Shown here: one piece after another, positions 53,931 to 62,696 of the stretch
How positions within the stretch are numbered: the first letter of the stretch is position 1
Layout of the letters: each line of letters opens with the position of its first letter
Assembly: GCA_006226965.1 (NCBI GenBank)
Contig: SBGQ01000022.1
Coordinates: forward strand, 1 to 62,780
Length of the DNA stretch: 62,780 nt
Direction of reading: 5' to 3'
Source of the DNA: a bacterium
GTDB taxonomy: Bacteria; Bacteroidota; Rhodothermia; Balneolales; M1805
The notes under the pieces: generated by a model
Told to the model about the DNA's origin: nothing
The model's database searches: none
Seen by the model: only the letters and a program-made list of their open reading frames with translations
Made by a program: the position numbers and the translations under genes

Positions 53931-53978
53931 ATTACATCATTACATCATTACATCATAACATCGCTTCATCAATTCATC
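53931..53978 (-). repeat. Octamer tandem array at the stop codon of the CrtI-like gene
   Basis: On the minus strand, units GATGAATT, GATGAAGC, GATGTTAT and three exact GATGTAAT follow each other with period 8, becoming more regular away from the gene. The gene's TGA stop (53977-53979) overlaps the first GATG by two bases (TGATG), as at leuA. Confidence 0.9.
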
Positions 53979-55587
53979 ATCTAATCAATTTTGCAAAGCT
54001 CTTTTTCTTGTCTTTCATGATGGTTTGAAACGCATTCCAACCCGCAGCACCGAAAACTCCACCTCCGGGATGGCACGATGCACTACTCAAATATAAATTC
54101 TTAATGGGTGTACGGTATTGCCCCAATTCAGGAGTCGGACGAAACATAAACATCTGGTTAAAATTCATCTCCACATGCATCACGTTCCCTTTAATCATGC
54201 CGTGTTTGCGCTCTATATCCAAGGGAGTTTGTATATACCAATCAATGAGTTTGCCTTTCATGTTCGGAGCATATTCGCAAACCACATCGTAAATCTTTTG
54301 TGCTTCTCGTTCTTTAATATCATCCCAGTTTTCCCCGTTCGATAATTCATACGGATGCCATTGCGCCCATGCAAATAATGTATGTCCACCGGATTTTGCC
54401 ACATCTTCATCCACTTTCGAAAAAGTCATAGCCAAGACAGCCGGTTTTTGAGGCGGTTCTTTTCTCATAAAATCAGTGATGGCATTATCCATGTATTGTT
54501 TTGATGGACAAAGTAATTGTAAACCGTTAGTCACAAATTCATCATCCTCGCAAGCGGAATAAACAGGAAGTTCTTCAACAGCACAACGGATTACCATTCC
54601 AAATCCGTTTCCTACCGTGATATTCTCCACTTTTTGAATCATTTCGGGAGCCAAATGTTTTTCTCCGACCAGTTTTAACATCGTTGTTTGCACATGTGCG
54701 TTCGACACAATGGTTTTTGCAAAATATTCAACATCCTTTTCAGTCTTAACGCCTATCGCCTCCCCTTTTTCTACGATTATTTCTTTGATAGGTGATTCCG
54801 AAAGAACTTTACCGCCATGTGCTTCCAAATAATTTTTCATTGCCTGAGTAAGCATTCCGCTACCGCCTCTTGGATGTTTTGCACCGCTTTCGTGTAACAT
54901 CGCCTGCCATCCTACAAAATCTCCGGTGGCGGCTTGGTCAGGTGTCGGTCCCGATTGGGCAGCCATCCACAATAAAGCCGTTTTCAGGTGTGGATTTTTG
55001 AATTGACGCTCGACAACTTCACCATAACTGCCCAAAATTTTAGTAAGTCCATCAAGCTGTTCTCCTTTTTTGAACATAGAGCCATCACGCATTTGTCCCT
55101 TTGCCATTTCCATAAAAATGTTTTTACCGCTTGGCGGAACCATAAACGTTTTTAAAACACCATGATTAATTCGTGTCCAGAATTCAATAAAGTCTCGGTA
55201 GTTCTCAACATCTTCCGGCGCAACGGTTTGTATTGATTCCAGTGTCTTGTTTAAATCTTTCCAAAAATGAATAACACCTTTTCCATTTGGAACAGGATAA
55301 GACATAAACGGATCTAAATCGATGTATTCTAATCCGTATTTGTCTAATTCCAAAGCTTCAATAATTCCTGTCTGATGAATCATAATATGCGCCGATGAAC
55401 CCACATCCATTCGAAAACCATCAGGGAAGCGTTCACTTTGAAACATGGTTTCGGTACAAACAGCGCCACCAATCGTATCGCGTTTTTCAAGTACTAACAC
55501 ACGATAACCGTACTTCGCTAAAAAACAAGCAGTTACTAATCCATTATGACCCGAGCCAACAACAAGTACATCCCAATTCGTCTGCAT
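53977..55587 (-). CDS. FAD-dependent phytoene-desaturase-family oxidoreductase (PYROXD2-like)
   Basis: 536 aa. N-terminal dinucleotide site 'VLVVGSGHNGLVTACFLAKYGYRVLVLEKRDTIGGAVCTE' (7-46) and C-terminal FAD signature 'LYLSSASCHPGGGVFGAAGWNAF' (near 498-520). It groups by motifs with COG1233 amine oxidase/CrtI relatives, in particular the PYROXD2-like subgroup. No other carotenoid genes (crtB, crtE) are near, so carotenoid desaturation is not assured. Substrate unknown. Upstream 401 nt are shared with the divergent ilv leader. Confidence 0.85.
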   Translation of the reverse strand: MQTNWDVLVVGSGHNGLVTACFLAKYGYRVLVLEKRDTIGGAVCTETMFQSERFPDGFRMDVGSSAHIMIHQTGIIEALELDKYGLEYIDLDPFMSYPVPNGKGVIHFWKDLNKTLESIQTVAPEDVENYRDFIEFWTRINHGVLKTFMVPPSGKNIFMEMAKGQMRDGSMFKKGEQLDGLTKILGSYGEVVERQFKNPHLKTALLWMAAQSGPTPDQAATGDFVGWQAMLHESGAKHPRGGSGMLTQAMKNYLEAHGGKVLSESPIKEIIVEKGEAIGVKTEKDVEYFAKTIVSNAHVQTTMLKLVGEKHLAPEMIQKVENITVGNGFGMVIRCAVEELPVYSACEDDEFVTNGLQLLCPSKQYMDNAITDFMRKEPPQKPAVLAMTFSKVDEDVAKSGGHTLFAWAQWHPYELSNGENWDDIKEREAQKIYDVVCEYAPNMKGKLIDWYIQTPLDIERKHGMIKGNVMHVEMNFNQMFMFRPTPELGQYRTPIKNLYLSSASCHPGGGVFGAAGWNAFQTIMKDKKKSFAKLIR

Positions 55588-55863
55588 TTTTCAATTTTTT
55601 TCGTTTTTGATTAATTATTCAAGTGAAATGTAATTCGTTTTGATATCGTTCCAACACAAATACTTAAAATTTATTCACTCATTTTGTAACATAATTCTCA
55701 AAATGGAAGCGCTTTTCCAATTTCATTCATTTCAAAATAGGCTTCAAATGCTTAAATAGACTATTAAACAGAAACACTTGTTTCATTTTTTTTATTTTCC
55801 ATATTGTTTTTCAGATATTTTCAATTACATTAGAAACAGAACAAACAAATTGGCTTAACAACG
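55588..55863. promoter_or_regulatory. Divergent promoter region, CrtI-like gene and ilv operon
   Basis: AT-rich DNA with no ORF. On the plus strand TTGTTT (55804-55809), 16 nt, TACATT (55826-55831) is a plausible sigma-70-like promoter about 30 nt before the leader peptide. At 55704-55719 the partly symmetric TGGAAGCGCTTTTCCA has the same AAGCGCTT core as the amylase operator and could be a distant member, but this is weak. Confidence 0.4.
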
Positions 55864-55926
55864 ATGCTTAACAACCTTCTCCTTATTAACGTGATTCTTC
55901 TCGTGCTCATTAGCAAACCGAGGTGA
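55864..55926 (+). CDS. ilvL: ilv operon leader peptide
   Basis: A 20-codon ORF, too short for ordinary gene finding: MLNNLLLINVILLVLISKPR. It contains seven Leu, three Ile and two Val codons, i.e. 12 of 20 are the products of the operon. It ends in TGA at 55924-55926, within the segment that can form an antiterminator. Leaders of this composition control ilv operons in enterobacteria. Symbol by analogy of function, not homology. Confidence 0.85.
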   Translation: MLNNLLLINVILLVLISKPR

Positions 55927-55988
55927 GGAAGGTATAAGCAGAATTTGAAATTCAGCCTTTCTCACTAAGTGGGAAAGGCTTTTTTTTT
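55923..55988 (+). promoter_or_regulatory. Attenuator: antiterminator and terminator before ilvD
   Basis: Terminator: 12-bp stem AGCCTTTCTCAC (55954-55965) / GTGGGAAAGGCT (55969-55980), 3-nt loop, then eight T ending at 55988. Antiterminator: GTGAGGAAGG (55923-55932) is complementary over all ten positions to CCTTTCTCAC (55956-55965), one pair being G-U. A possible third pairing joins CCTTCTC in the leader (55875-55881) with the same GAGGAAGG. Stalling at Leu/Ile/Val codons should free 55923-55932 to block the terminator. Confidence 0.88.
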
Positions 55989-56000
55989 ATGAAATCATCT

Positions 56001-57677
56001 ATGGAATTAAATACATACAGCAAACATATAACTCAAGACCCAACACTTCCGGCAGCTCAAGCCATGCTTCATGCCATTGGCTTAAACCGTGAAGATTTAA
56101 AAAAGCCACAAGTCGGAATTGCCAGCACAGGATTCGACGGCAATCCCTGTAATATGCACTTAAACGGTTTAGCCGGCTTAATCAAACAATCTGTAAATCA
56201 ACAAGAATTAGTTGGCTTGGTATTTAATACCATAGGTGTAAGCGATGGCATTACAAACGGAACACCCGGAATGCGTTATTCGCTGGCTTCTCGTGAAATT
56301 ATTGCGGATTCTATGGAAACCGTTGTTCAGGCTCAAGCTTATGATGCCATGATTGCCATTGTAGGTTGTGATAAAAATATGCCGGGTTCAATAATGGCCA
56401 TGTGCCGTTTGAACCGTCCGGCTTTTATGATGTACGGCGGAACTATTGCTTCGGGCTCTTACAAAGGCAGAAAACTAGATATAGTTTCTGCCTTTGAAGC
56501 ATTAGGGGAGTTAACAGCCGGAAAATTGAGTCAGGAAGATTATCAGGGAATTATAGAAAATGCGATTCCTGATGCCGGGGCTTGCGGCGGAATGTACACC
56601 GCCAATACAATGGCATCTTCGATTGAAGCAATGGGAATGTCGCTCCCTTATTCATCTTCCAATCCTGCAAGAAGTTCGGATAAACAAGATGAAGCACACG
56701 GCGCCGGAGTTGCCATTAAAGTATTGCTTGAAAAAGACATCAAACCGCTGGACATCATCACAAAAGAATCTTTAGAAAATGCCTTAACGGTTGTGATGGC
56801 TTTAGGCGGTTCAACTAATGCCGTACTACACTATATGGCTATTGCAAACACCGCTGGAATCTCTTTGACTTTAGATGATATTCAAACCATTAGCGACAAA
56901 ACCCCGCTTTTAGCTGATTTAAAACCTAGTGGCGCCTATTACATGGAAGATATTTACCGAATCGGCGGTGTTCCGGCGGTAATGAAATACTTGTATGAAA
57001 AAGGATTCATTCACGGTGATTGTTTAACCTGTACAGGAAAAACGGTAGCTGAAAATTTAGCAGAAGTTCCCTCCCTAGTCGACAATCAAAAGATTATTAA
57101 TCCGGTAGAAACGCCTATTAAACCATCCGGCCACATTCAGATTTTGTACGGCAATTTAGCGCCGGAAGGCTCTGTTGCAAAAATCACCGGAAAAGAAGGT
57201 GAAGTATTTAAAGGTCCGGCACGTGTATTTAACGGTGAATTTGAAGTAAACGAGGGCATCATCAACGGAAAAGTAAAACCGGGAGATGTTGTTGTAATTC
57301 GTTATGTGGGTCCGAAAGGCGGCCCCGGAATGCCGGAAATGTTAAAACCAACATCTGCGATTATGGGAGCAGGATTAGGAAAATCAGTAGCATTAATTAC
57401 TGACGGACGTTTTTCCGGCGGAACTCATGGTTTTGTGGTTGGCCATATAACTCCCGAAGCTCAAACAGGCGGCCCTATTGCCCTGATTGAAAACGGAGAT
57501 ATCATCGAAATTGACGCTGTCAATAAAACTCTCAATTTGCATGTTTCCGACGAAGAAATGATCCGTCGGAGAGCCCAATGGAATGAACCTGCTTTATCTG
57601 TAAGCAGAGGTTATCTCTACAAATTCGCTAAAACCGTAGCAACAGCATCACAAGGATGCGTAACTGATCAACTATGA
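56001..57677 (+). CDS. ilvD: Dihydroxy-acid dehydratase
   Basis: Fe-S enzyme of valine and isoleucine synthesis. I choose the ATG at 56001 (558 aa, '[23 protein letters not shown]'), because homologues begin MELN; the in-frame ATG at 55989 touches the attenuator U-tract. Cluster cysteines: '[12 protein letters not shown]' (about 48), 'VGCDKNMPG' (about 120), '[10 protein letters not shown]' (about 340). '[11 protein letters not shown]' and '[26 protein letters not shown]' are signatures. First gene of the operon. Confidence 0.96.
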
Positions 57678-59413
57678 CTTCACTTAAAATCGCCTTCGCT
57701 CCCGAGGCAGCTGAGCGAAAACACAAAGAACGAATTACAGGCTCCGAAGCCATCATCCATTCCTTATTGGAAGAAGGCGTAGATACTATTTTCGGGTATC
57801 CGGGCGGTGCCATTATGCCGTTTTATGACAAACTCTATCTGTTTCAAGATAAATTGATGCACATTTTAAGCCGCCACGAGCAGGGCGCTGTCCATGCCGC
57901 ACAAGGTTATGCACGTGCATCAAAAAAAGTCGGTGTCTGTGTTGCCACTTCTGGTCCGGGTGCAACAAACTTGATTACCGGTATTGCTGATGCTATGATT
58001 GATTCAACACCTTTGGTTTGTATTACGGGTCAGGTTGCTTCTCCTCTATTGGGAACAGACGCTTTTCAAGAAACAGATGTAGTTGGTATTTCAGCGCCTG
58101 TTACTAAGTGGAATTACCAGATTACAAAAGCGAGTGAAATTCCTGAAGTATTAGCCAAAGCATTTTATATCGCGCGTTCCGGTCGTCCGGGTCCCGTTTT
58201 AATTGACATCACAAAAGATGCTCAGTTTGGCGAATTTGAATTCGAATACAGAAAATGTATTTCCTTACGCAGCTATAAACCGGTTCCTGAATTAGATAAA
58301 ACTCAAGTTGAAAAAGCCGCTGATTTAATCAACAAAGCCAAAAAACCGTATGTATTAGTAGGACAAGGTGTTTTGTTATCCGGCGCACAAGCTGAATTAG
58401 ATGCTTTCTTGAAAAAGACTGGAATTCCTGCCGCCTCAACCTTATTGGGTTTATCCGCGCTCCCTGCTGACCACCCAAATTATGTCGGTTATTTGGGAAT
58501 GCATGGAAATTATGGTCCAAATATCAAAACAAACGAATGTGATGTTTTAATAGCTGTCGGGATGCGTTTTGATGACCGTGTAACCGGAGATGTTAAGCGA
58601 TATGCCAAACAAGCTCAGGTAATTCATATTGATATAGACAAAGCCGAAATCAACAAAATTATAAAAGCTGATTGTCCAATAATTGCGGATGCAAAAGAAG
58701 CTTTACAAGCCTTAACGGCTAAGTGCGAGGCAAAAACACATCAGGATTGGATGAACGAATTTAAAGCTTGCGATGAAATTGAGTTCGACAAAGTAATTGC
58801 CAAAGAAGTGTATCCAAGCAGCGGAAAAGTGACCATGGCTGAAGTTATTCGTCACATTTCTGAATTAACATCAGGTGAAGCCATTGTGGTAACTGATGTA
58901 GGGCAACACCAAATGGTTGCAAATCGATACTACAAATACAAAAAACCTTATAGCAATATTACTTCCGGTGGCTTGGGAACCATGGGATTTGCACTTCCTG
59001 CAAGTATGGGTGCGGCACTTGGCGCTCCTGAACGTCCGGTTATTGCTGTAATCGGTGACGGCGGTTTCCAAATGACTATTCAGGAATTGGGCACTATTTT
59101 TCAGTTTCAGATTCCTGTTAAAATCTTGGTTTTGAATAATGAATTTTTAGGAATGGTTCGCCAATGGCAGCAACTTTTCTTTGAAAAACGTTACTCAGCA
59201 ACCGAAATGACCAATCCTGATTTCGTAACTATCGCGAAAGGGTATCAGATTGATGCTAACCGTGTTGAACATCGTGAAGAATTAAAAACTTCATTGGAAA
59301 ATTGGTTAAACCATCCCGGTCCTTCTTTCTTGGAAGTGATGGTGGAACAAGAAGAAAATGTATTTCCGATGGTACCGACCGGTGCTTCGGTATCAGAAGT
59401 TCGCTTAGAATAA
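57674..59413 (+). CDS. ilvB: Acetolactate synthase large subunit
   Basis: 579 aa, thiamine-diphosphate enzyme that starts Val/Leu/Ile synthesis. '[13 protein letters not shown]' and '[19 protein letters not shown]' (catalytic Glu in HEQG) lie in the N-terminal domain. '[15 protein letters not shown]' is in the central domain. TPP motif '[29 protein letters not shown]' is near 465-493. Its ATG overlaps the ilvD stop by 4 nt (ATGA). Residues 1-25 are a basic extension over the usual start. Confidence 0.96.
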
Positions 59414-59459: not shown

Positions 59460-60008
59460 ATGATACATTTATTCAGTTTAGGCGTTTTCACAGAAGACAA
59501 AATCGGTTTGTTAAACCGAACAACGGGAATTTTCACCCGAAGAAATATCAGTATTGAAAGTTTAACGGTTTCTGAAACAGAACTTTCAGGTGTGTTTCGA
59601 TTCAATATTAAAATCAAGACAACACATGAACAAATTCAAAAAGTAGCCGGACAAATTGAAAAACTGATTGAGGTTCTTCGCGTCCAAGTCTTTGAAGAAG
59701 ACGAAACCATCTATCAGGAAATAGCCTTATATAAAGTTCCGACAAGTGAACTTATTAAAAGTGACAACATAGAACGCTTGGTTCGTTTGCACTCAGCCCG
59801 CATTTTATATGTCGGACCTGAGTTCATGGTTATCGAAAAAACCGGTCACAAAGAAGAAACTCAACAATTATTTGCCGATTTAGAACCGTTCGGAATTCTT
59901 GAATTCGTGCGTTCAGGCAGAATATTTGTAAGTAAATCAACAGAAAACCTTATCAGTTATCTGTCCAAAGTAGAATCTCATCCAACACAACTACAACCTA
60001 TAGTTTAA
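59460..60008 (+). CDS. ilvN: Acetolactate synthase small (regulatory) subunit
   Basis: 182 aa. An ACT domain is at residues 3-75 ('FSLGVFTEDKIGLLNRTTGIFTRRNISIESLTVSETE'), the known site for valine feedback. A C-terminal domain near 80-165 has 'EIALYKVP' and 'VEKTGHKEETQQLFADLEPFGILEFVRSGRI', the usual ALS_ss_C motif. It follows ilvB by 46 nt. Confidence 0.95.
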   Translation: MIHLFSLGVFTEDKIGLLNRTTGIFTRRNISIESLTVSETELSGVFRFNIKIKTTHEQIQKVAGQIEKLIEVLRVQVFEEDETIYQEIALYKVPTSELIKSDNIERLVRLHSARILYVGPEFMVIEKTGHKEETQQLFADLEPFGILEFVRSGRIFVSKSTENLISYLSKVESHPTQLQPIV

Positions 60009-60021
60009 GACACATAAAAAC

Positions 60022-61068
60022 ATGGCAAAAATGACATTTGGCGGCGTTGAAGAAGACGTCGTTACAAGAACTGAATTCCCGCTCAAAAAAGCACAAGAAG
60101 TGCTTTCTAAAGAAACAATCGCAGTAATCGGTTATGGAGTTCAGGGCCCTGGACAGGCTTTAAACCTACGCGACAACGGCTTTAATGTAATTGTTGGTCA
60201 ACGCAAACCTTCCGCTTCTTGGGATAAAGCAGTAGCTGACGGCTTTGTACCCGGCGAAACACTTTTCGAATTGGAAGAAGCCTGTGAAAAAGGAACCTTA
60301 ATTATGTTTTTGCTTTCTGATGCTGGTCAAATTTCACTTTGGCCGACTGTTAAAAAGCATTTAACCGCCGGAAAATCCTTGTATTTCTCTCACGGTTTCG
60401 GAATTACTTACAAAGACCAAACAGGAATCGTACCACCTGCTGATGTTGACGTATTCTTAGTTGCTCCAAAAGGTTCAGGTACTTCTTTACGCCGTCTGTT
60501 TGTTGAAGGTAAAGGTTTAAACTCAAGTTTTGCCGTTTTCCAAGACGCAACGGGAAAAGCTCGTGAAAAAGCAATTGCACTAGGTATTGGTGTTGGCTCA
60601 GGTTATTTATTCGAAACTACTTTCCAAAAAGAAGTTTACAGCGACTTAACCGGTGAGCGCGGAGTTTTAATGGGCGGTATTGCCGGAATGATGGAAGCAC
60701 AATACAACTTATTACGCTCAAAAGGCCATAGCCCATCGGAAGCGTTCAACGAAACAGTTGAAGAGCTTACCCAAAGCTTAATTGTTTTGATTGGTGAAAA
60801 AGGAATGGATTGGATGTACGCCAACTGTTCAACTACAGCTCAACGTGGTGCATTAGACTGGAAAAATAAATTCCGCGATGCTGTTGCTCCTGTTTTTGCT
60901 GATTTATACGAATCAGTTGCAACGGGTAACGAAGCTAAAATTACGATTGAAGCAAACCGCCAGTCTGATTACAGAGTGAAGCTTGAAGCTGAACTCGCAG
61001 AAATTCGAAACTCTGAAATGTGGCAGGCAGGAACAGCTGTTCGGTCCCTCCGCCCTGAAAGAGCTTAA
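60022..61068 (+). CDS. ilvC: Ketol-acid reductoisomerase
   Basis: 348 aa, Mg- and NAD(P)H-dependent. 'AVIGYGVQGPGQALNLRDNGFNVIVGQRKPSASWDKA' (35-71) is the dinucleotide site; Arg and Ser in the beta2-alphaB loop suggest NADPH. Metal ligands appear in 'YSDLTGERGVLMGGIAGMMEAQYNLL', with a conserved Asp and Glu, and 'VEELTQSL' in the C-terminal helical part. Start 'MAKMTFGGVEEDV' is typical of Bacteroidota homologues. It closes the ilv unit. Confidence 0.96.
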   Translation: MAKMTFGGVEEDVVTRTEFPLKKAQEVLSKETIAVIGYGVQGPGQALNLRDNGFNVIVGQRKPSASWDKAVADGFVPGETLFELEEACEKGTLIMFLLSDAGQISLWPTVKKHLTAGKSLYFSHGFGITYKDQTGIVPPADVDVFLVAPKGSGTSLRRLFVEGKGLNSSFAVFQDATGKAREKAIALGIGVGSGYLFETTFQKEVYSDLTGERGVLMGGIAGMMEAQYNLLRSKGHSPSEAFNETVEELTQSLIVLIGEKGMDWMYANCSTTAQRGALDWKNKFRDAVAPVFADLYESVATGNEAKITIEANRQSDYRVKLEAELAEIRNSEMWQAGTAVRSLRPERA

Positions 61069-61097: not shown

Positions 61098-61178
61098 ATG
61101 AGGCTTTTGTCAGTGGATGACTTACTAAACGGGAAGTGCAATGTAACACTTCCCGATTTTTTCGAATTTCAACGATGA
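61098..61178 (+). other. Possible leucine-rich leader ORF before leuA
   Basis: ATG at 61098 opens 26 codons (begins MRLLSVDDLLNGKCNV) with Leu pairs CTT-TTG and TTA-CTA in the first ten codons. It reads through the terminator hairpin at 61130-61155. Ribosome stalling could therefore alter the hairpin. Alternatively it is chance sequence in the ilvC-leuA gap. Confidence 0.3.
61130..61162 (+). terminator. Terminator between ilvC and leuA
   Basis: CGGGAAGTG (61130-61138) and CACTTCCCG (61147-61155), 9 bp, 8-nt loop, followed by ATTTTTTC. It either ends the ilv unit or acts as a leuA attenuator. Confidence 0.88.
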
Positions 61179-61208: not shown

Positions 61209-62696
61209 ATGGATCGTATTCACATTTTTGATACCACTTTACGCGACGGTGAACAAGTACCGGGCTGCCAGTTAAATACCATTGAAAAAATTGAGGTTGC
61301 TGAAGCGCTGCAAGATTTAGGAGTAGATATTCTTGAAGCCGGATTTCCTATTTCATCTCCGGGAGATTTCCAATCTGTTGTAGAAATTTCAAAAGCGGTT
61401 CGTGAACCCGTTATTTGTGCCCTAACACGAGCTGTAGATAAAGACATTGAAGTTGCCGCTGAGGCGTTAAAATACGCCCGACTCAAACGTATTCACACGG
61501 GAATCGGAGCATCAGACCAACACATTCTCCATAAGTTCAACTCCACACGAGATAAGATTCTTGAAAAAGCGGCTCATGCTGCAAAATACGCTCGTAATTT
61601 TGTGGATGATGTTGAATTTTACTGTGAAGATGCCGGACGAGCAGACAACGCCTTTTTAGCCCGATTAGTTGAAACTGTTATTGCAAATGGCGCTACGGTT
61701 GTAAACATTCCTGACACTACCGGTTATTGTTTACCGGACGAATTTGGCTCAAAAATTCAGTATTTGTTCGATCATGTTTCGAATATTGATAAAGCCATTA
61801 TTTCTGTGCATTGCCACAACGATTTGGGCATGGCAACTGCCAATACTTTAGCCGGAGTTTCGCATGGTGCTCGTCAAGTTGAAGTAACGATAAACGGAAT
61901 TGGTGAACGTGCCGGAAATACGTCACTCGAAGAAGTTGTAATGGCGCTAAAAAGTCGTCAGCCTGAGTTTAAACTCCAGAATAGAATTAACACACGCAAG
62001 ATTTATCCTGTTTCTCGTTTGGTTTCCCGTTTGATGCGTATGCCTGTTCAGCCCAATAAAGCAATTGTTGGCAGAAATGCGTTTGCTCACTCATCCGGAA
62101 TTCATCAGGATGGTGTTATCAAACAAAGAGAAAATTACGAAATCATTGACCCGCAAGATGTTGGAATTAAAGAATCCAGCATCGTTTTGACCGCTCGTTC
62201 GGGTCGCGCAGCTTTAAAATTCAATCTTGAAAAATTAGGCATCCATTTCACCAAAGAAGAATTGGATGAAGTGTACGAACGCTTTTTAACGATGGCTGAT
62301 GCTAAAAAAGATTTGGATGAATACGATTTATTAGAGTTAGCGGGACAACAAGTTGAACGCCGCCCCACCCATGTTGAATCACTTGCCGTAAGTTGTGGAA
62401 GCAATGGCGCTGAAGCAGAAGTTTCCGTTAATATCGACGGTACGAATTTCAAAGCAAAAGAAACCGGCGTGGGTCCGGTAGATGCTACGTTCAAAGCGAT
62501 TGACAGTATTATGAACAAAGGCATTCGCTTGGAAGAATATCTGGTTCAATCGGTACATGGCGGAACAGATGATGTGGGTAAAGTTCACATTCAAGTATCA
62601 AAAAACGGCATTATTTATTATGGTTTCGGCTCTGATAAAGATGTGATTTTTGCGACTGCAAAAGCGTATATCGATGCTTTAGTGAAAGTTATTTGA
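61209..62696 (+). CDS. leuA: 2-isopropylmalate synthase
   Basis: First step of leucine synthesis: 2-ketoisovalerate plus acetyl-CoA. 495 aa. '[22 protein letters not shown]' (5-26) carries the R-D catalytic pair. '[46 protein letters not shown]' holds the metal His pair. The linker '[18 protein letters not shown]' precedes the C-terminal leucine-binding domain (about 385-495). Slightly shorter than E. coli LeuA (523). Its TGA stop (62694-62696) overlaps the first GATGTCG unit. No leuB, leuC or leuD is seen before the window end. Confidence 0.96.

Follow-up and report, generated by a model that had tools for sequence, protein, structure and literature searches.

How transcription into ilvD, the first gene of an ilvDBNC operon, is controlled is the question raised by a short region of a 62,780-nucleotide contig from a member of the Balneolales (Bacteroidota), the whole of which was analysed and is referred to below as the window. 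The original prediction had placed in front of ilvD a complete attenuator working as in enterobacterial ilv operons. Every structural element that such a system needs was found, the elements fit together and relatives share them, and the ilv operon is very probably preceded by a ribosome-mediated transcription attenuator like those of enterobacterial ilv and trp operons. Sequence and folding directly show which parts it has, that the alternative pairings exclude each other, how the parts are spaced and that they are conserved (Table 1).

Table 1. Features of the ilvD upstream region and of the genes behind it; positions are those of the window.
Feature	Position	Strand	Remarks
Promoter-like element, Bacteroidota type	55803-55833	+	ATTG, 19-nt spacer, TACATTAG; best match between 55690 and 55925
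Leader peptide ORF	55864-55926	+	MLNNLLLINVILLVLISKPR, then stop; putative sensor of Leu/Ile/Val-tRNA charging
Strand 1	55865-55886	+	pairs with strand 2 if the leader is untranslated (anti-antiterminator or protector hairpin); minimum-free-energy fold
Strand 2	55923-55932	+	GTGAGGAAGG; 5' half of the antiterminator; overlaps the leader stop codon
Strand 3	55954-55965	+	AGCCTTTCTCAC; terminator left arm and 3' half of the antiterminator
Strand 4	55969-55980	+	GTGGGAAAGGCT; terminator right arm
Nine-T tract	55980-55988	+	part of the intrinsic terminator
ilvD, dihydroxy-acid dehydratase	56001-57677	+	TIGR00110 and NF002068 above cut-off; start according to relatives
ilvB, acetolactate synthase large subunit	57674-59413	+	TIGR00118 above cut-off
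ilvN, acetolactate synthase small subunit	59460-60008	+	TIGR00119 above cut-off
ilvC, ketol-acid reductoisomerase	60022-61068	+	TIGR00465 above cut-off
leuA, 2-isopropylmalate synthase	61209-62696	+	TIGR00973 above cut-off; next gene, same direction

The leader ORF runs from ATG 55864 to TGA 55924-55926 and, exactly as had been predicted, 12 of its 20 residues are Leu, Ile or Val (seven L, three I, two V), the last control codon being Ile (55909-55911). All its Leu codons are CTT or CTC and its two Val codons GTG, types that in eight neighbouring genes account for 23% of Leu and 15% of Val codons, respectively; this codon choice may partly be due to pairing with strand 2. Dinucleotide shuffling of 55588-55988 (5000 replicates) gave a leader-like ORF, defined as 15 or more codons with at least 55% Ile, Leu and Val, in 0.26%, but a terminator of the kind found here, or a leader and terminator in this order, in no case. 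No second leader-terminator pair was found when both strands of the whole window were scanned.

The terminator at 55954-55980 is formed by 12 pairs, including one G-U, closed by the loop TAA. Thus the stem is as originally described, but its T tract comprises nine residues instead of eight. The claimed pairing of the 10-nt strand 2 with the left arm is likewise found (GTGAGGAAGG with CCTTTCTCAC, one G-U). Calculated energies are -15.7 kcal/mol for the 11-bp terminator core and -17.1 kcal/mol for the full hairpin, compared to -15.0 to -16.4 kcal/mol for the 10-12 bp of the antiterminator formed by strand 2 and the terminator left arm. With about -16 against about -17 kcal/mol, antiterminator and terminator are balanced and mutually exclusive. 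The fold of 55840-55990 as a whole amounts to -40 kcal/mol (z = -3.66), and no shuffle is equally stable.

Folding in both states had been proposed as a check. For this the ribosome was placed codon by codon along the leader, taken to cover about 11 nt past the A-site codon, and the RNA left uncovered was folded. The alternative states are each obtained according to the position of the ribosome: for each control codon tested, from codon 5 to codon 16, a ribosome held there lets the transcript as far as strand 3 adopt the antiterminator, whereas at the stop codon strand 2 is covered, the antiterminator is impossible and the terminator alone can form. Counted from the first base of the last control codon, strand 2 starts 14 nt further on, just past a ribosome stalled there, and with the assumed footprint this Ile codon is the last stall position that leaves strand 2 free.

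A promoter-like element of Bacteroidota type (consensus TTTG / TAnnTTTG) is located about 30 nt 5' of the leader ATG, and in most attenuator loci of the order a promoter-like TTGATATT...TTTCTTTG is found at a similar distance 5' of the leader. Judged from this element, transcription would start near 55838-55841. The transcription start, transcription-translation coupling in this organism and the response to amino-acid supply are what we infer in the following scheme. RNA polymerase would start about 25 nt 5' of the leader ORF. With Leu-, Ile- and Val-tRNA charged, the ribosome would reach the stop codon and cover strand 2, so that strands 3 and 4 could pair and the resulting terminator, with nine U, would end transcription before ilvD. 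If one of these tRNAs were short, the ribosome would stall on one of the twelve control codons and leave strand 2 free to pair with strand 3 while strand 4 is yet to be transcribed, and the polymerase would enter ilvD-ilvB-ilvN-ilvC and perhaps leuA. Without translation, strand 1 would hold strand 2 and the terminator would form.

The genes 3' of the attenuator, ilvD, ilvB, ilvN, ilvC and then leuA, make the amino acids that would be sensed. An in-frame ATG of ilvD at 55989 directly follows the T tract, as had been pointed out, but the almost absent spacer claimed between attenuator and gene is weakened because relatives share the second in-frame ATG, at 56001, as start (MELNKYSK / MAELNKYSK) and the upstream ATG is not conserved. 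The spacer from the T tract to the conserved start is therefore 12 nt, and mostly about 12-45 nt in relatives. Between ilvC and leuA a terminator-like hairpin CGGGAAGTG...CACTTCCCG with six T is observed (61127-61162), which could be the operon end or a separate control element of leuA. On the other side, the divergent neighbour (53977-55587, minus strand) encodes a CrtI/CrtO-like carotenoid oxidoreductase family protein, with scores below curated cut-offs.

Comparison with relatives had been proposed as a further check for conserved Leu/Ile/Val codons and for covariation. Including the window, 23 ilvD loci of the order possess the terminator, each with a T tract of 8-10 residues, and in all 23 the leader end contains a strand 2 whose possible pairing with the left arm is worth -8.5 to -19.1 kcal/mol. 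These antiterminators were found by folding from the GGAA core, since a duplex search within 15 nt 5' of the stop misses many; in 8 of the 23 they are weak compared to shuffles (z of -0.8 to -1.6). Leaders rich in Ile, Leu and Val recur at the corresponding place in 20 order-mates with an ATG start and in two with a TTG start, so the anticipated conservation of control codons is borne out. Genera g3, g10, g13, g17, g23 and g27 carry leaders such as MLSTVISLVIIRVIGITYRPGKALC followed by a terminator AGCCTTCCC...GGAAGGC with 9-10 T. The TTG-started leaders (MIQQRDIIVIIIEVIVQKR) belong to genus g35, with the TGA inside GATGAGGAAG, so that stop codon and strand 2 overlap in the same way as in the window. 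The leaders keep VII.VIG and differ in length by multiples of three. Across the whole leader no synonymous excess is found (26% compared to 29% expected), and the central Ile/Val positions alone are held. Covariation is confined to one of the eight terminator pairs, changed on both sides in two of 22 distinct sequences; the terminator core is otherwise nearly invariant, which leaves little room for compensatory changes. In the 45 other ilvD loci of the order examined, among them those of genus g25, genus g18 and family f2, no attenuator was found.

In a tree of IlvD the window's sequence is placed among Bacteroidota near Spirosoma/Fibrella, on long branches. The IlvD sequences of the order form separate, well-supported lineages, the main attenuator genera being placed among Flavobacteriaceae-type sequences and genus g25 and family f2 standing apart from both these genera and the window, which suggests that the ilv operon was replaced or transferred. 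A second, putative control element is also seen upstream of ilvD: the palindrome TGGAAGCGCTTTTCCA is present at 55704-55719 of the window and at loci L018-L029, L117-L143 and L149 of order-mates. With its core AAGCGCTT it looks like a putative repressor or activator site. The core precedes ilvD in 27 of the 45 order loci without attenuator, often at -71 to -79, compared to one of the 23 with attenuator, the window itself, and for this reason attenuator and palindrome may stand in for one another as control systems in the order.

Beyond the order, an automatic scan of 80 named ilvD loci found an Ile/Leu/Val leader followed by a terminator in 23, with none expected from shuffles of the same upstream regions. 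Positive loci come from Flavobacteriaceae, Saprospiraceae, Chitinophagaceae and other groups; among them are Flavobacterium, Lutibacter, Aquimarina, Dokdonia, Gaetbulibacter, Arenibacter, Sediminibacterium, Segetibacter and one Ignavibacteriota MAG. In Gaetbulibacter (L059:5566-5805) two candidate attenuators are arranged in tandem 5' of ilvD, with leaders MQKQILNIISIISVVIISQR and MNYKMKYIVNIIIIAIINSS and a terminator each, and two terminators 5' of ilvD likewise occur in L037 and L090.

The leaders of the positive named loci are rich in Ile and Val, with 0-4 Leu in nearly all, as opposed to seven in the window. In the seven order-mates examined, ilvD-ilvB-ilvN-ilvC is not followed by leuA. 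Among the named loci, none of the 26 listed as having a candidate leader carries leuA behind ilvC within the sequence examined, and of all 80 one does, which is without detectable attenuator. The seven Leu codons, with leuA next in line, are what is unusual in the window's attenuator, and this one case suggests that its leader may have turned leucine-rich because leuA joined.

Of the other operons of the same genome, the his, trp, homoserine dehydrogenase and aconitase-family loci were examined, the aconitase-family loci yielding nothing informative. The trpE leader MLKHSVHTNWWWHIC contains three consecutive Trp codons (WWW) followed by a terminator with nine T (G000:C45, L151 / L157, minus strand), and the stretch yields a sub-threshold match to the Rfam family Trp_leader (26.6 bits, threshold 41). 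The hisG leader MMAPAHLHHHCVHHHQA contains seven His followed by a pyrimidine-rich stretch (G000:C136, L150 / L156, minus strand). No intrinsic terminator was found after the latter, and in view of the pyrimidine-rich stretch hisG may be under Rho-dependent or translational control. Before the homoserine dehydrogenase gene (fused aspartokinase) no attenuator was seen. Given the trpE and hisG leaders, attenuation is probably a general habit of this organism.

Given how frequent terminators are in general, and how little covariation is seen here, the hairpin might be regarded as a constitutive intrinsic terminator or attenuator that sets a basal level without sensing amino acids, the ORF then being a chance open frame. 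The neighbouring gene is divergent, however, and therefore no upstream transcript needs termination here. Furthermore, order-mates and members of other families have leaders rich in Ile, Leu and Val in the same position, and the shuffles described above seldom gave the leader and never gave leader and terminator together, all of which makes a constitutive element improbable. An action of the leader mainly on translation, either by reinitiation or by release of the purine-rich right arm GGGAAAGG as ribosome site of ilvD, draws on the position of this arm 10 nt 5' of ATG 55989 and on a proposal that Bacteroidetes reinitiate from short upstream ORFs (PMC4833913). Against this, a perfect stem with nine T is the signature of a transcription terminator, the conserved start lies at 56001 and the spacers are longer in relatives, so that this reading too is unlikely.

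The 5' region is structured and has two alternative states, as would also be the case for a metabolite-binding riboswitch, a T-box or a protein-binding leader. However, none of the leader, T-box and riboswitch families of Rfam, Bacteroid-trp (RF01692) among them, matches the window above its gathering score, and the best sub-threshold matches are unrelated. Moreover, conservation resides in leader codons, strand 2 and terminator, and no other conserved structured domain is apparent from the alignments; such an element is very improbable, still more so than the two alternatives above. The preferred reading remains ribosome-mediated attenuation. A broader picture is possible, if somewhat doubtful: leader-peptide attenuation would be common and largely uncatalogued for branched-chain operons of Bacteroidota, would alternate within the order with the AAGCGCTT-core palindrome system, and in the window the presence of leuA behind ilvC would have led to a leader re-tuned to leucine.

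A comparative prediction of attenuators by Vitreschak et al. in 2004 (FEMS Microbiol Lett 234:357) reportedly covered branched-chain and other amino-acid operons, and its abstract is said to mention Bacteroidetes/Chlorobi. The window's attenuator is not the first sign of leader-peptide attenuation in Bacteroidota. The Bacteroid-trp motif is located before trp genes and contains Trp codons. It was described as a predicted cis-regulatory RNA of Bacteroidetes (RF01692; Weinberg et al. 2010, PMC2864571), like the element studied here but for another amino acid, and the RF01692 model matches neither the window locus nor the trpE leader of this genome. A transcriptome paper on Flavobacterium psychrophilum (Guerin et al. 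2021, PMC9723704) reports strong indications that leader-peptide attenuation acts on amino-acid operons. It concerns the same phylum and the same proposed mechanism in amino-acid biosynthesis operons, although a different genus; the ilv operon is not named in its main text. In the light of these two reports the claim that no well-described cases exist in Bacteroidota was too strong, and in the literature searched, which covered few subscription papers, a detailed account of a Bacteroidota ilv attenuator was not found. Non-enterobacterial leaders before ilv genes are known from other phyla, namely the leader peptide of the Corynebacterium glutamicum ilvBNC attenuator (PMC11857589) and the ilvD attenuator peptide of Staphylococcus aureus (PMC5794164), the latter system also involving CodY.

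The locus offers a defined, testable attenuator in a phylum in which the mechanism is hardly documented and transcription-translation coupling is little studied. Since the element recurs across families with lineage-specific leader codons, Bacteroidota provide a natural series for how leader peptides become tuned to the genes that they control. Compared to the ilvGMEDA, ilvBN, leu and trp leader attenuators of E. coli and Salmonella, no sequence relation is shown, the leader is short with its 20 codons, and the putative promoter is of Bacteroidota type instead of sigma-70. In common with them it has a control-codon leader with strand 2 at the leader end, an antiterminator opposed to a terminator, a U tract and downstream genes that make the sensed amino acids. 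The proposed mechanism is known from textbooks; the element is here conserved, present across much of Bacteroidota and barely described in the phylum.
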